Below are positions 1-51,402 of a DNA stretch of 51,402 nt, piece after piece; positions within the stretch are counted from its first letter, which is position 1; every line of letters starts with the position of its first letter. The stretch is from an uncultured bacterium (lineage in GTDB: Bacteria > Hydrothermota > Tepidihabitantia > Tepidihabitantales > DTDR01), in assembly GCA_938040315.1 (NCBI GenBank), contig CALHQW010000026.1, positions 1 through 51,402 of the forward strand, written 5' to 3'. Position numbers and translations under genes: made by a program. The notes beneath the pieces are model-generated. The model was given only the letters and a program-made list of their open reading frames with translations. It was not told the DNA's origin and searched no databases.

Positions 1-256
1 GAATTTACTCAAAATAGTAAGCAAATCCTCTCCTTTATCTTTATACATCAATGGCTCACCACCAGAAATCACAAAAAACCTCACTCCCCAGAGGGTAAAA
101 GCCTCCTTTATTATCCGCTCAAATATCTCTTTAGGCAATTTATCTGTCTCTTTCGCCGCATTCGCATAACAACCATAACACCTTAAATTGCAAGCCTTAG
201 TCGGTGAAATAACCAAAAATCCTGGGGGTCCTTCACCGTATTTTTCTCGCCATTCT
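1..256. repeat. Terminal inverted repeat, left arm
   Basis: Positions 1-256 are the reverse complement of 51147-51402 with no indels and five mismatches (at 51177, 51210, 51213, 51241 and 51261). The outermost 141 bp (1-141 against 51262-51402) are identical. The repeat lies entirely inside the radical SAM coding sequences, so it reflects two paralogous genes rather than transposon ends. Only one mismatch changes an amino acid (Asn against Asp just after the CxxxCxxC motif). Confidence 0.95.
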
Positions 257-555
257 CGTTTAATCCGCGGACCTTCCTTATTTTGGAAAATCGCTTTTAA
301 AAAGGTATTTAAAGAATTTATTGACCAGGAAACCCTGAGAGCCGAATTTAACATTGCATAAATCATATAATATAGGTCCAAACCAACTTGATAAGAAGTT
401 GTGTGCTCTTTATTTAAACAGGCTTCTTTTAGTTTTGGAGAAAAAAGAGTAAAAATAAATTTAGAAAGTCCACGAATCGGTGAAAAAGGAATTAATCTAT
501 CTATATTTGCCCCTAACTTGATTGTCTTAATTATTAAATTTTCCTCTCTTTTCAT
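1..555 (-). CDS. Radical SAM protein, 3' end cut by window edge (copy A)
   Basis: This is the first 185 codons of a radical SAM enzyme; the gene runs off the left edge without a stop. ATG is at 555-553. Residues 1 to about 97 are a helical N-terminal extension with a KEHT motif. A conserved segment follows (YGEGPPGFLVISPTKACNLR), containing the cluster motif CNLRCYGC (CxxxCxxC), which in this family binds a 4Fe-4S cluster that cleaves S-adenosylmethionine. The ISGGEP motif downstream is the usual SAM-contacting GGEP. The substrate cannot be predicted; any SPASM-type C-terminal domain would lie outside the window. From the CNLR region outward it is almost identical to the gene at the right edge, while the N-termini differ strongly. 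A leaderless-type promoter lies directly upstream. Confidence 0.93.
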   Translation of the reverse strand, partial: MKREENLIIKTIKLGANIDRLIPFSPIRGLSKFIFTLFSPKLKEACLNKEHTTSYQVGLDLYYMIYAMLNSALRVSWSINSLNTFLKAIFQNKEGPRIKREWREKYGEGPPGFLVISPTKACNLRCYGCYANAAKETDKLPKEIFERIIKEAFTLWGVRFFVISGGEPLMYKDKGEDLLTILSKF

Positions 556-562
556 CTTAAGA

Positions 563-590
563 ATTATAATAAATTTTACCTTTCCGTCAA
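563..590 (-). promoter_or_regulatory. Promoter of radical SAM copy A, leaderless type
   Basis: On the minus strand TTGACG (590-585), a 16-nt spacer and TATAAT (568-563) are followed by 7 nt and then ATG at 555. A transcript starting about 7 nt after the -10 box would begin at or next to the start codon. No Shine-Dalgarno sequence is present. Confidence 0.7.
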
Positions 591-661: not shown

Positions 662-1543
662 ATGAAAGAAACCCATAAATTCATAAATTTCCTTCTCTTT
701 TTCTCTTCTTTACTTACTTCTTTATTAATCATTTTTATTCTATTTTTCTTATTATCTGCAGGATTAAAATTATTTAAATCAATCTCTCCAAAAGAATTTT
801 TCTTCCATCCGGTTTGGAATCCAACCGGTTATTTTAAAAATGAATATGGTCTTTTACCAAATTTATGGGGAAGTATTTTAGTAACCTTTTTAGCATTAAT
901 AATCGCTATTCCTGTGGGTATTTTCTCTGCTATCTTCTTAAGTGAAGAATTAAAGAAAATTTCTTGGTTATATAACTTAGTAAAAGGGATAATCGAACTT
1001 TTTGCTGCCTTTCCTTCAGTAATCATTGGCTTTTTTGGTTTAGTCTATTTAGCCCCTTTAATCCAAAATCTTTTTTCGCTCTCCAGTGGTTTATGTGTGT
1101 TAAACGGTGGAATTATTTTAGCCTTAATGTGTTTACCAACAATTATTTCAATTTGTGAAGCAAGTATTTCACAAGTTCCTTTAATTTATAAAGAAGCCGG
1201 ATATGCCTTAGGAGTTTCTCGCTTCCAAACTACTTTAAAAATTGTCTTACCAACAGCCAAATCAGGAATAATCGCGGGAATTTTATTAGGTTTTGGCCGA
1301 GCAATTGGGGAAACAATGGCAATGTTAATGGTTTTAGGGAATTCACCGATAACTGCTAAATCTTTATTTTCTCCTACTAGAACTCTAACAACAACTATTG
1401 CTATTGAAATGGGGGAGACAGCAAAGAATACCCCTCATTTTTTTGCTTTATTTATGCTGGGAGTTATTTTGTTTATTATCTCTTTTATTGTTAATTTAAT
1501 TGGCAATTATTTTGCCCAAAAAAGAATAAAATTAATAATATGA
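662..1543 (+). CDS. pstC: Phosphate ABC transporter permease PstC
   Basis: Inner-membrane permease half of the high-affinity phosphate importer PstSCAB. It has 293 residues with about six hydrophobic segments. The binding-protein-dependent transport signature lies in the segment around EAGYALGVSRFQTTLKIVLP, followed by GRAIGETMAM, which is typical of PstC and contacts the ATPase. Its last 4 nt overlap the start of pstA, suggesting translational coupling. The cognate binding protein pstS is not in this operon but about 20 kb away on the minus strand. The length is normal for the family and the ATG is the only good start after the promoter. Confidence 0.95.
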   Translation: MKETHKFINFLLFFSSLLTSLLIIFILFFLLSAGLKLFKSISPKEFFFHPVWNPTGYFKNEYGLLPNLWGSILVTFLALIIAIPVGIFSAIFLSEELKKISWLYNLVKGIIELFAAFPSVIIGFFGLVYLAPLIQNLFSLSSGLCVLNGGIILALMCLPTIISICEASISQVPLIYKEAGYALGVSRFQTTLKIVLPTAKSGIIAGILLGFGRAIGETMAMLMVLGNSPITAKSLFSPTRTLTTTIAIEMGETAKNTPHFFALFMLGVILFIISFIVNLIGNYFAQKRIKLII

Positions 1544-47465: not shown

Positions 47466-48293
47466 ATGAAGATATTTAGGATAGTACTTATTTTGCTTTT
47501 TTTTGTTAGTTTTTCCTTTTTACAAATTACAATCGATAAAACAAAAAAAGTAAGTTTAAGAGAAATTTTATTACAAGAGTTAATGTATTTTCCTAGTGGA
47601 AAAATTTTAAAAGAGATGACAATCGAATATGATAATCTTATAAGTGATTTTATTTGGTTGAGAGCCATTCAATATTATGGTTTTCATTTGGTAACGGATA
47701 GAAAATTTGATTATCTTTTTCATATCTTTAACATTATAACTACTTTAGATCCCCATTTTCGAGGTGCCTATCATTTTAGTAGTTTTTGTCTTGCTTGGGA
47801 TGCTTTTAAACCAGATAGTGCTGTATATCTTTTAAAAAAGGCGCTCCTTTATGATCCTTTTCATTGGCAGCATTATTTTGATATTGGATTTGTTAATTAC
47901 ATGGTGCTTAAAAATTATGAAGAAGCGGGTTATTATTTTTATCTTGCCGCCCAATTACCCGAAACTTGGCGTATTAGTGAAAGGTGGGCCGCCTTTTCTT
48001 TTGGCAAATCACCAAAAAAAGATTTTGCCGAAATTCTTTGGCAAGATATATATAATTCCACTAATAATGAAGAGTTAAAGAAAATTGCTAAAAGAGGGTT
48101 AAAGGTATTAAAAAGAGAGAGAGATTTAGAATATTTACAAAAGGCGGTAGATAAGTTTATACAAGATAAAAAAAGGGAACCAAACTCTTTGTTAGAACTT
48201 TATAAGGAAGGATATATTGATTCTATTCCCAAAGAGCCTTTTGGTTATTATTACAAAATAAAAGATGGTAAAGTTATTTTCTCCAAAAGATAG
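47466..48293 (+). CDS. TPR-like protein with N-terminal membrane anchor
   Basis: A 275-residue protein. A hydrophobic N-terminus (IFRIVLILLFFVSFSFL) is followed by helical repeats resembling TPRs: FLHIFNIITTLDPHFRGAYH-type motifs, SAVYLLKKALLYDPFHWQHY and NYEEAGYYFYLAAQLPE. The C-terminus has DKFIQDKKREPNSLLELYKE and DSIPKEPFGYYYKIKDGKV, a segment also found at the end of pilin-like and assembly proteins. It starts 1 nt after the ABC permease. It probably acts as a periplasmic assembly or adaptor factor; no specific function is recognised. It overlaps thiE by 29 nt. Confidence 0.75.
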   Translation: MKIFRIVLILLFFVSFSFLQITIDKTKKVSLREILLQELMYFPSGKILKEMTIEYDNLISDFIWLRAIQYYGFHLVTDRKFDYLFHIFNIITTLDPHFRGAYHFSSFCLAWDAFKPDSAVYLLKKALLYDPFHWQHYFDIGFVNYMVLKNYEEAGYYFYLAAQLPETWRISERWAAFSFGKSPKKDFAEILWQDIYNSTNNEELKKIAKRGLKVLKRERDLEYLQKAVDKFIQDKKREPNSLLELYKEGYIDSIPKEPFGYYYKIKDGKVIFSKR

Positions 48294-49311
48294 GATTATT
48301 GATGTTAATTTTAATCGTTTAAAAGAAGGTTTAAAAATCTGTGAAGATCTTATAAGATTTTCTTTTAAGGACAAAAAATTACTCTTTCTTTTTCGACAGG
48401 AGGTAAAAAAGATTAGAAGAGTAGTTTTAAAAGAAGAAAAAAAATATCTACCTTATCGTAATGTTAAAACTGATTGGGGGAAAGAATATGAATATGATAA
48501 GATACCTTTAGAAATAAAAGATGAAAGAGAACTTTTATTAAGAAATTTAAAAAGATGTCAGGAGAGTTGTCGGCTTTTAGAAGAAATTTATAAATTAAAA
48601 AATGAAGGACTGTCTAAATTTTTTAAAAGAGAAAGGTTCTTCTTTTATGATTTTGAAAAAAAAGTCTTTTTAAAGTTTAAAAAAGAAATTGATATAAGAG
48701 TCTATCCAATTATTGATATTGGTACTTTTAATTTCAAAAAAATAAAGGAATACGGAGATTTTGCTATTAAACTTATTAAAAAGGGAGCAACAATTTTACA
48801 ACTTCGGGCGCCAAAGGATTTTAAAACTAGGGATTTTATTTTAATTGCCTCAGAGATTTTAAGGCGAATAAAGAAGAGAAAAGTTAAATTAATTATTAAT
48901 GACCGAGTGGATATCTGTTTAGCAGTAGATGCCGATGGCGTCCATTTAGGAAAGGATGATATGCCGGTAAAATTAGCAAGAAAGATTTTAGGTGAAGAAA
49001 AGATTATTGGTAAGACAATAAGGAGCGTGAAGGAATTGAAAAAGGCAGAGAAAGAGGGGGTTGATTATTGTTCTTGTGGTTCGGTTTACAAATCAAAAAC
49101 AAAGAGGGAGGCGAAGGTTATTGGTATAGAAACCTTAAAAAAAATACTGAAAGAGAGTGAAGTACCAATTTGTGTTATAGGGGGAATTGATTTAAGTAAT
49201 GTGAAAAGGTTATTAAAGTTAAAAATTGCTGGTATAAGTTTCATTTCGGCAATTAAAGATATCGAAAAACTTGCCAAAATTGTTAAATGGAATTTAAAAG
49301 GTTCTTCCTAA
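48265..49311 (+). CDS. thiE: ThiD2-ThiE fusion: thiamine-phosphate synthase
   Basis: A 348-residue fusion. Residues about 8-135 resemble the ThiD2 domain (IIDVNFNRLKEGLKICEDLI, LLFLFRQEVKKIRRVV). Residues about 145-340 are a ThiE TIM barrel (YPIIDIGTF, GATILQLRAPKDF, LIINDRVDICLAVDADGVHL, GKTIRSVKELKKAEKEGVDY, VPICVIGGID). ThiE condenses the pyrimidine and thiazole phosphates into thiamine phosphate. The usual YIGxGPIFxTxTK reads YCSCGSVYKSKTK. No other thi genes are nearby. The start overlaps the TPR-like gene by 29 nt and the end overlaps murJ by 25 nt. Confidence 0.9.
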   Translation: MVKLFSPKDRIIDVNFNRLKEGLKICEDLIRFSFKDKKLLFLFRQEVKKIRRVVLKEEKKYLPYRNVKTDWGKEYEYDKIPLEIKDERELLLRNLKRCQESCRLLEEIYKLKNEGLSKFFKRERFFFYDFEKKVFLKFKKEIDIRVYPIIDIGTFNFKKIKEYGDFAIKLIKKGATILQLRAPKDFKTRDFILIASEILRRIKKRKVKLIINDRVDICLAVDADGVHLGKDDMPVKLARKILGEEKIIGKTIRSVKELKKAEKEGVDYCSCGSVYKSKTKREAKVIGIETLKKILKESEVPICVIGGIDLSNVKRLLKLKIAGISFISAIKDIEKLAKIVKWNLKGSS

Positions 49312-50807
49312 AAGTTTCTTCTTTTACTGTTGGCACTTTAATCTCGCGGATTACTGGACTTTTAAGAGAAATAGTTTTTGCCTATCTTTTTGGTGCTTCC
49401 TATGCTACCGATTGTTTTAATGTGGCCTTTCGGATTCCTAATTTATTAAGAGATATGTTTTCGGAAAGTGCTCTTTCGGCTGCCTTTGTGCCTACTTTTT
49501 GTGAAAAGATGAAAAAAGAAGAGAGGAAAAATATGTCACCTTCCCTTTCTTTATTTGCTTCTAATGTTTTGAACTTTTTAATATTAATTGTAGGTGGAGT
49601 TACTTTACTATTGATAATCTTTTCTTTTTATGTCGTAAAAATTATCTCCTTTGGTTTCTCCCAAAATCCAACAAAATTTACCTTAACTTTAAATTTAACA
49701 AAAATAATGCTTCCTTTTTTATTCTTCATCTCTTTAGCCAGTTGGGCAATGGCAATTTTGATTGCCTATGGTTATTTTTTTGTTTCGGCAGTTAGCAGTG
49801 CAGTTTTTAACATTTTTTCTATTCTTATTCCGATTTTTACCTACACAATATTTTTAAAATTAAATTATGAGCCAATCTTATCCATGGCTTATGGTGTTTT
49901 ATTCGGCTCAATATTTCATTTTTTTTTCTTGTTAATATTTCTAAAAAAATTGGGTTATAAATATTATTTTTATCTCTCCTTAAAAGATTCCGCCTTAAAA
50001 AGAGTTTTTAAATTATATCTACCAGTAATTTTTGGCCTGGCTGCCTATCAAATTAATTTCTTTGTTAATACTATTTTGATAACTTTTTTAGAAGAGAAAA
50101 GTATTACTTATCTAAATTATGCCTATCGGGTGATGCATCTACCGGCTGGTCTTTTTGGTGTGGCGGTGGGAAGTGTCGCTTTGCAAGAATTCTCTCTTTC
50201 CGAAAGAGAAAGTATAAAAGATAACATCTTTGTGCCTATAAAGATAAATATCTTACTTCTATTACCGATTACATTCATTTTTATAATTCTATCATTACCG
50301 ATTACAAAAATACTTTATGAAAGGGGCAAGTTCACTTTTACTGATTCTTATCATACCGCAATCGCTCTTTCTTTATATAGTTTCTTAATATTTCCTTCCA
50401 GTTTAGTAAGAGTCTTTGCCAGTGTATTTTATTCCCTAAAAGATACTAAAACACCGGCATTAATTGGCTTTCTTTCGGTTTTCTTAAATATTTTCTTAAA
50501 TATTTTTTTAATGAAAAAAATTGGTTTTAAAGCATTTCCAATAAGTGCCTCCAGTGCGGCAATTTTTCAAGCCTCTTTATTATTCCTTTTCCTTAGAAAA
50601 AGATCCGGTATAAAAATTATTACTACTCAAACAAAAAATTTCTTTCTAAAAAATTTCTCCTTTTTAACCCTCTTTTCTTTTTCTCTTTATTTTTTTTATC
50701 ATTTTTTTAATCTATTAAAATTACCCTTGCTTTTGTCTTTTCTTTTAACCTTAATTATTAATGGATTTTTCTATTTATATTTTCTTAAAAAAAATTTCCA
50801 ATCATAA
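49287..50807 (+). CDS. murJ: Lipid II flippase MurJ
   Basis: A 506-residue inner-membrane protein with about 14 transmembrane segments that flips the peptidoglycan precursor lipid II. The family signature is clear: TLISRITGLLREIVFAYLFG, then DCFNVAFRIPNLLRDMFSES and ALSAAFVPTF. Later segments YRVMHLPAGLFGVAVGSVAL and ILYERGKFTFTDS match conserved MurJ loops. Length is typical. It overlaps thiE by 25 nt. It is followed by an unusual AAAGGATCCTTTTT sequence and the next promoter. Confidence 0.96.
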   Translation: MEFKRFFLKVSSFTVGTLISRITGLLREIVFAYLFGASYATDCFNVAFRIPNLLRDMFSESALSAAFVPTFCEKMKKEERKNMSPSLSLFASNVLNFLILIVGGVTLLLIIFSFYVVKIISFGFSQNPTKFTLTLNLTKIMLPFLFFISLASWAMAILIAYGYFFVSAVSSAVFNIFSILIPIFTYTIFLKLNYEPILSMAYGVLFGSIFHFFFLLIFLKKLGYKYYFYLSLKDSALKRVFKLYLPVIFGLAAYQINFFVNTILITFLEEKSITYLNYAYRVMHLPAGLFGVAVGSVALQEFSLSERESIKDNIFVPIKINILLLLPITFIFIILSLPITKILYERGKFTFTDSYHTAIALSLYSFLIFPSSLVRVFASVFYSLKDTKTPALIGFLSVFLNIFLNIFLMKKIGFKAFPISASSAAIFQASLLFLFLRKRSGIKIITTQTKNFFLKNFSFLTLFSFSLYFFYHFFNLLKLPLLLSFLLTLIINGFFYLYFLKKNFQS

Positions 50808-50823: not shown

Positions 50824-50851
50824 TTGACACAAATTATTGAGTATTTATAAT
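50824..50851 (+). promoter_or_regulatory. Promoter of radical SAM copy B, leaderless type
   Basis: TTGACA (50824-50829), 16-nt spacer, TATAAT (50846-50851), exactly 5 nt, then ATG at 50857. It is one of the clearest examples of the leaderless module. Confidence 0.85.
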
Positions 50852-50856
50852 TTTTT

Positions 50857-51402
50857 ATGACAAAAAAAGAGAAACTTATTACCGGTGCAATCAAAGTTTT
50901 TGATAAATTTATTCATTTTTTACCAGGAAATATTTTAGCAAAATTAACTATTGAAATAATTTCACCTTTTTTAAAAAGAGTTTGTATGAATAAAGAGCAT
51001 ACCGGTTCTAAAAAGGTTGGTGAAGATATTTTTTATATGACTAAAGCAATGCTATATACCCTTTTAAGAATAGAACTTACAGATATTTCTAAAGATATTT
51101 TTATTAATGCCTTATTTCATAAAGAGAAATGGCATTTAACAAGTAAAGAATGGCGAGAAAAATACGGTGAAGGACCGCCAGGATTTTTGGTTATTTCACC
51201 GACTAAGGCCTGTAATTTAAGGTGTTATGGTTGTTATGCGGATGCGGCGAAAGAGACAGACAAATTGCCTAAAGAGATATTTGAGCGGATAATAAAGGAG
51301 GCTTTTACCCTCTGGGGAGTGAGGTTTTTTGTGATTTCTGGTGGTGAGCCATTGATGTATAAAGATAAAGGAGAGGATTTGCTTACTATTTTGAGTAAAT
51401 TC
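50857..51402 (+). CDS. Radical SAM protein, 3' end cut by window edge (copy B)
   Basis: First 182 codons of a radical SAM enzyme that runs off the right edge. Residues 1 to about 96 form a helical N-terminal region only distantly similar to that of copy A (shared KEHT, YM..AML and spacing). From EWREKYGEGPPGFLVISPTK onward the protein is identical to copy A except Asp for Asn after CNLRCYGCYA. The cluster motif CNLRCYGC and ISGGEP are intact. Substrate unknown. The pair points outward at opposite ends of the window. Confidence 0.93.
   Translation, partial: MTKKEKLITGAIKVFDKFIHFLPGNILAKLTIEIISPFLKRVCMNKEHTGSKKVGEDIFYMTKAMLYTLLRIELTDISKDIFINALFHKEKWHLTSKEWREKYGEGPPGFLVISPTKACNLRCYGCYADAAKETDKLPKEIFERIIKEAFTLWGVRFFVISGGEPLMYKDKGEDLLTILSKF
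51147..51402. repeat. Terminal inverted repeat, right arm
   Basis: Reverse complement of positions 1-256 with five mismatches and no indels. 51262-51402 (141 bp) match 1-141 exactly. See the left arm for details. Confidence 0.95.

Follow-up and report, generated by a model that had tools for sequence, protein, structure and literature searches.

In methanogens, the MtrA domain of the paralogs mtrA-1 and mtrA-2 is homogenised by long-lasting gene conversion, while the transmembrane domain stays distinct (PMC4632066). For the bacterial paralogs RF1 and RF2, conversion is limited to domain 3, whose function is common to both (PMC4530459). Recurrent concerted evolution was also reported for 26 prokaryotic genes, whose paralogs are closer within species, at silent sites as well (PMC6053082). 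Here, we describe two radical SAM genes, copies A and B, of a hot-spring bacterium of the candidate phylum WOR-3. Like mtrA-1 and mtrA-2, they appear to have a functional domain homogenised between paralogs and another region kept separate. However, mtrA-1 and mtrA-2 are tandem archaeal genes with an acquired transmembrane domain, whereas A and B are separated, inverted bacterial genes with homologous, diverged ends and another enzyme class. As in RF1 and RF2, conversion between A and B appears confined to one domain, but the former underwent two ancient isolated events, and the latter seem to convert recurrently within one genus, very recent events included. As for the genes of PMC6053082, similarity between A and B is greater within species than between species, silent sites included; the main text of that study does not contain the term ‘radical SAM’, and domain limitation was not its focus. 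We searched the literature for conversion among radical SAM paralogs and for radical SAM in WOR-3, and found no match. A and B are a new example of domain-limited concerted evolution, clear but not unprecedented.

The bin of the source genome (G000) contains 1.49 Mb in 40 contigs, the smallest retained contig having 2,673 bases. G001 and G002 denote other species of the same genus, and C numbers denote contigs. The window, that is, the whole stretch of 51,402 nucleotides analysed, is the complete contig C26 of G000, and its two ends are assembly breaks within a repeat. Copy A (555-1, minus strand) and copy B (50857-51402, plus strand) are open frames that run off opposite window ends. Read inward from the contig ends, they share 141 exactly identical bases, followed by mismatches at 142, 162, 190, 193 and 226; from position 257 onward, mismatches are nearly continuous. 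The alignment thus confirmed the abrupt junction noted in the preliminary description, after which 251/256 bases are identical with a single amino acid change (N132 in A, D in B). Before the junction, identity falls to 56% (nucleotides) and 38% (amino acids) over 97 aligned codons. The first 96 or so codons had been said to differ almost completely, which overstates the case: conserved blocks are present, the motif NKEHT..S..VG.D..YM..AML is common to both N-termini, and their alignment identifies them as homologous along the whole length, one diverged region.

In copy A, the divergent N-terminal region (codons 1-100) occupies 257..555 on the minus strand. It is 38% identical to B and 88% identical to the G001 ortholog in amino acids, and may be mostly helical, a structural prediction of low confidence. 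Codons 101-185, which open the homogenised radical SAM core, follow at 1..256, also on the minus strand, and contain CxxxCxxC and GGEP (PF04055, E 5e-11). In copy B, alignment with A places the divergent N-terminal region (codons 1-97) at 50857..51146 on the plus strand, and identity with A together with Pfam places the start of the core at 51147..51402 on the same strand. Both genes are cut there by the contig end.

We found that each contig end carries an exact 141-base overlap with the opposite end (1..141, minus strand; 51262..51402, plus strand), as expected of an assembly graph node. Comparison of all G000 contig ends revealed exact 141-base sharing in nine further pairs besides that of C26, namely eight end-to-end overlaps of 141 bases and the common 141-base prefix of C10 and C16. 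From this we infer that the assembly is a de Bruijn graph with k=141, the default maximum of MEGAHIT. Since such sharing recurs in the assembly, the truncation of A and B is a k-mer graph break at a repeat. A break of this kind can flag a recent conversion tract. Both ends of another contig, C35 (L164, L165), share exactly 141 bases in a circle-like manner. This contig carries EF-G, ribD and serS; a circular element was rejected, and C35 is probably a chromosomal segment between direct repeats.

Using the full-length G001 ortholog as the query, we located the C-terminal halves of A and B in G000. They open contigs C16 and C10, beginning at codon 393. The first 141 bases of the two contigs are identical, followed by 63% amino acid identity across the last 35-40 codons. 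On C16, the tail is of the A type and is accompanied by the convergent 818-aa neighbour that the G001 gene also has, and C10 leads into recA-recX-alaS (recX and alaS were named by reading translations). On this orthology and synteny, C16 is assigned to A and C10 to B; the pairing is based on these two criteria and not on reads. Copy B thus continues in C10 upstream of recA, by synteny with both G002 and G001. Therefore, both genes comprise about 478 codons, with a divergent N-terminus (1-100), a near-identical core (about 101-438) and a divergent tail. The full-gene assembly proposed earlier was achieved for the 3′ halves, but codons 186-392 (about 621 nt) of both G000 copies are missing from the bin. 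As expected, the missing middle fits a collapsed contig of about 0.9 kb, and identity of the core there is deduced from the graph junctions.

In G000, about 50 kb separates A and B, which are inverted copies in divergent orientation. In G001, both lie on C33, with A on the plus strand at 41.5 kb and a B remnant on the minus strand at 14 kb, so that they are inverted too, 27 kb apart. The upstream neighbour of B is the lipid II flippase gene murJ (49287..50807, plus strand; PF03023), which has the same order in G001, and the neighbourhood murJ-B-recA is conserved; in G002, recA is preceded by a B-type tail. Directly upstream of murJ, at 48265-49311, we observed a fused ThiD2-like and thiamine phosphate synthase (TMP-TENI) gene. 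The divergent neighbour of A encodes a PstC-type phosphate transporter permease (662..1543, plus strand; PF00528), which is not beside A in G001. Collinearity with G001 extends over the right half of the window but not over the left 24 kb (1-24230, including the pst operon). A rearrangement endpoint is at or near copy A, whose promoter survives. In G001, A lies behind surE, and in G000 surE is found on C10 at 31.5 kb. Among relatives, the gene is often beside tyrS, another radical SAM gene or hydrogenase genes (named by reading translations); in this genus, these neighbours are absent beside the gene.

A promoter-like site of the leaderless type precedes each copy. For A, TTGACG-N16-TATAAT (563..590, minus strand) lies 7 nt before the ATG and is conserved upstream of the G001 ortholog; for B, TTGACA-N16-TATAAT (50824..50851, plus strand) lies 5 nt before the ATG. 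The leaderless promoters of the preliminary description were thus found at both genes, but they reflect a habit of the organism and are not specific to the pair, as at least 7 window genes, A and B included, have the same arrangement. A TATAAT a few bases upstream of the start, with no Shine-Dalgarno-like sequence, was also seen at the gene starts 3168, 9949, 11535, 39638 and 45781. Leaderless transcripts look common in this organism, alongside genes with GGAGG.

We compared divergence between species along the gene. Copy A and its G001 ortholog showed no step at the junction: nucleotide identity was 83% before and 85% after it, with dS of about 1.0 and 1.25, respectively. Between A and B, by contrast, synonymous divergence along the alignment, which had been proposed as a check, was biphasic, with dN of 0.53 and saturated dS in the N-terminus and dS of only 0.08 in the core. 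Since the divergence between A and its G001 ortholog is even across the junction, the identity of the A and B cores is not due to a core that is slow at silent sites. G002, a different assembly, likewise carries two copies, on C52 and C39. Within this species, core dS was 0.087 (codons 292-392) and 0.064 (codons 393-420), whereas core dS between G000, G001 and G002 was 0.8-1.8.

The tails of G000 and G002 cluster by paralog and not by species. AU tests on these short sequences (28-46 codons) rejected paralog grouping for core codons 393-420 (p=2e-8) and species grouping for the tail (p=0.0017). Only in the tract, therefore, do paralogs resemble each other more within species than between species, and the tree of the flank conflicts with that of the core, as in concerted evolution. 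The tract reaches its right edge near codon 439 in G000 and near codons 421-431 in G002; since these edges differ, the conversion events in the two species were separate. In G001, copy B is a pseudogene with stops and deletions between recA and murJ (L128:2370-3274 of C33). This remnant is 87% identical to G001 A over 332 nt and 83% and 81% identical to the two G002 copies over 246 nt, even though it is decayed, which suggests, more weakly, that conversion took place there too before B was lost. Over codons 421-438, the G000 core has 6/54 differences from the G002 B copy and 12 from the G002 A copy, a weak hint that conversion ran from B to A in G000. The B-type tail and the linkage to recA are common to G000 and G002, and the B remnant occupies the same place in G001, indicating that the duplication is older than the species split.

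Taken together, these comparisons strongly support recent gene conversion as the source of the near-identity of the A and B cores. The proposal made from the window was borne out by the even divergence of A from its G001 ortholog against the biphasic divergence of A from B, by the repetition in G002 and by the conflicting core and tail trees. It had further held that the N-terminal domain was kept distinct; at the other side, too, the tract stops short of a divergent region, the C-terminal tail. We consider it very probable that A and B are old paralogs whose core, at about codons 101-438 only, was homogenised by recurrent gene conversion. The mosaic, both of its edges, its repetition in G002 and the B remnant in G001 were observed.

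The position of the genes at assembly breaks raises the question of whether A and B are both real, or whether chimerism or the collapse of a single gene created the shared core. The cuts in both copies do coincide exactly with 141-base graph overlaps, and the bin lacks the middle contig. However, the five differences between A and B come before the 141-mer, the repeat is joined by four separate arms whose flanks differ, and the G001 ortholog and B remnant are at distinct loci of one contig. G002 repeats the pattern in a separate assembly, and collapse explains the truncation but not the mosaic. A chimeric artefact, which had been named as a possible refutation, was thus not borne out and is highly improbable. 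Near-identical cores within species would likewise result if each species had recently duplicated the gene on its own and the N-terminus and tail had then been replaced or had diverged very fast. This scenario is even harder to sustain, since G000 and G002 share B-type tails and the recA-adjacent position, which places the duplication before the split, and the N-terminus and tail of A match those of G001 A, so that both the tail tree and synteny contradict it. The least credible explanation dispenses with recombination and invokes intense purifying selection on the core at the nucleotide level: throughout the family, conservation is higher in the core than in the N-terminus, but silent sites in the ortholog cores are near saturation (dS 0.8-1.8), so silent change is unconstrained.

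Reciprocal crossover between the inverted copies would invert about 50 kb, either N-terminus could be joined to either tail, and the arrangements may coexist. The inverted repeats are about 1 kb long, the order of the arms is left open by the assembly, and rearrangement relative to G001 affects the left 24 kb of the window, all of which would fit. Nevertheless, the parental pairings are kept (murJ-B remnant-recA in G001, the B tail with recA in G002, and the A N-terminus with the A tail in G001), and there was no sign of two forms, which makes such crossover very unlikely. We give equally little credence to the related idea that the inverted copies are an invertible pair whose layout is kept as a slow switch, in a population with hybrid enzymes. 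If true, crossover in the core would flip about 50 kb and reshuffle N-termini, promoters and tails.

The wider family bears on the limits of the converted tract. In 26 relatives outside the genus, compared region by region, conservation is lowest in the first 100 residues, with about 10-40% identity to G001 A and two longer partial matches. The 5′ core has 46-66% identity in these relatives, and the tail is lower again. Fast-drifting flanks would fall below the identity needed for recombination while the core stays above it, a sufficient explanation for the limits of the tract. Since flank drift suffices, no selection for swapped modules need be assumed. Most relatives carry one copy, and a search of G000 for further copies, as had been suggested, found two only, with homologous N-termini and with neighbours that we compared to those in G001 and G002. 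A core mosaic was looked for in two other two-copy genomes, G018 and G029, and found in neither. The G029 copies are evenly old (45-71% amino acid identity in the core, 17-26% at the ends), and those of G018 are evenly young except for the tail. The preliminary description had pictured a multi-copy family that swaps N-terminal modules. The evidence does not support this: the family is otherwise mostly single-copy, the N-termini are homologous, that of A is orthologous to that of G001 (88%), and murJ-B-recA is conserved. With two copies only, homologous N-termini and the mosaic absent from G018 and G029, the pair does not fit a shufflon-like module-swapping family, which would carry unrelated, exchangeable N-terminal modules on several copies per genome.

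To assign a function, we examined the domains of the gene. PF04055 (radical SAM) matched the window fragments with E 5e-11 and 1e-10, and the full ortholog with E 1.6e-27. C122, C126 and C129 of the CxxxCxxC cluster motif are invariant in 20 homologs; in the core after the radical SAM cluster, only C338, C359 and C414 are invariant. SPASM (PF13186), for which seven cysteines are expected, scored 15.3 bits against a cut-off of 21.5, so at most an auxiliary-cluster enzyme of the twitch/SPASM kind is predicted. Named NCBIfam radical SAM equivalogs (NirJ, AhbC, MoaA, mycofactocin maturase and others) gave a best score of 72 bits against a cut-off of 500. The closest solved structures (SkfB, sulfatase maturase and others) align to the core only, and the tetraether lipid synthase Tes (7tol) matched with E 2e-4 over about 110 residues of generic core only. 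An AlphaFold model built from three sequences (pLDDT 44) was too poor for use. The function assignable from sequence is membership of the radical SAM superfamily only.

Under recurrent conversion, the genus would have inherited two old paralogs of roughly 478 residues, each with an N-terminal region of about 100 aa, a radical SAM barrel, a three-cysteine auxiliary-cluster region and a short variable tail. RecA-type homologous recombination probably copies sequence from one gene to the other without exchange, in repeated events that are separate from species to species. The core would be kept similar enough to recombine by selection on the catalytic domain, with no module-swapping device needed, and the tract would stop where flank divergence leaves too little identity for recombination. 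A and B would share radical SAM chemistry, and any difference in partner, localisation or expression would be set by the N-terminus and tail.

The pair offers a clean natural case, from an uncultured phylum, of a catalytic core homogenised while the flanks of the paralogs separate. The stages caught are very recent (G000), recent (G002) and after the loss of one copy (G001). Core-based phylogenies and annotations of this family would mistake old paralogs for recent duplicates.
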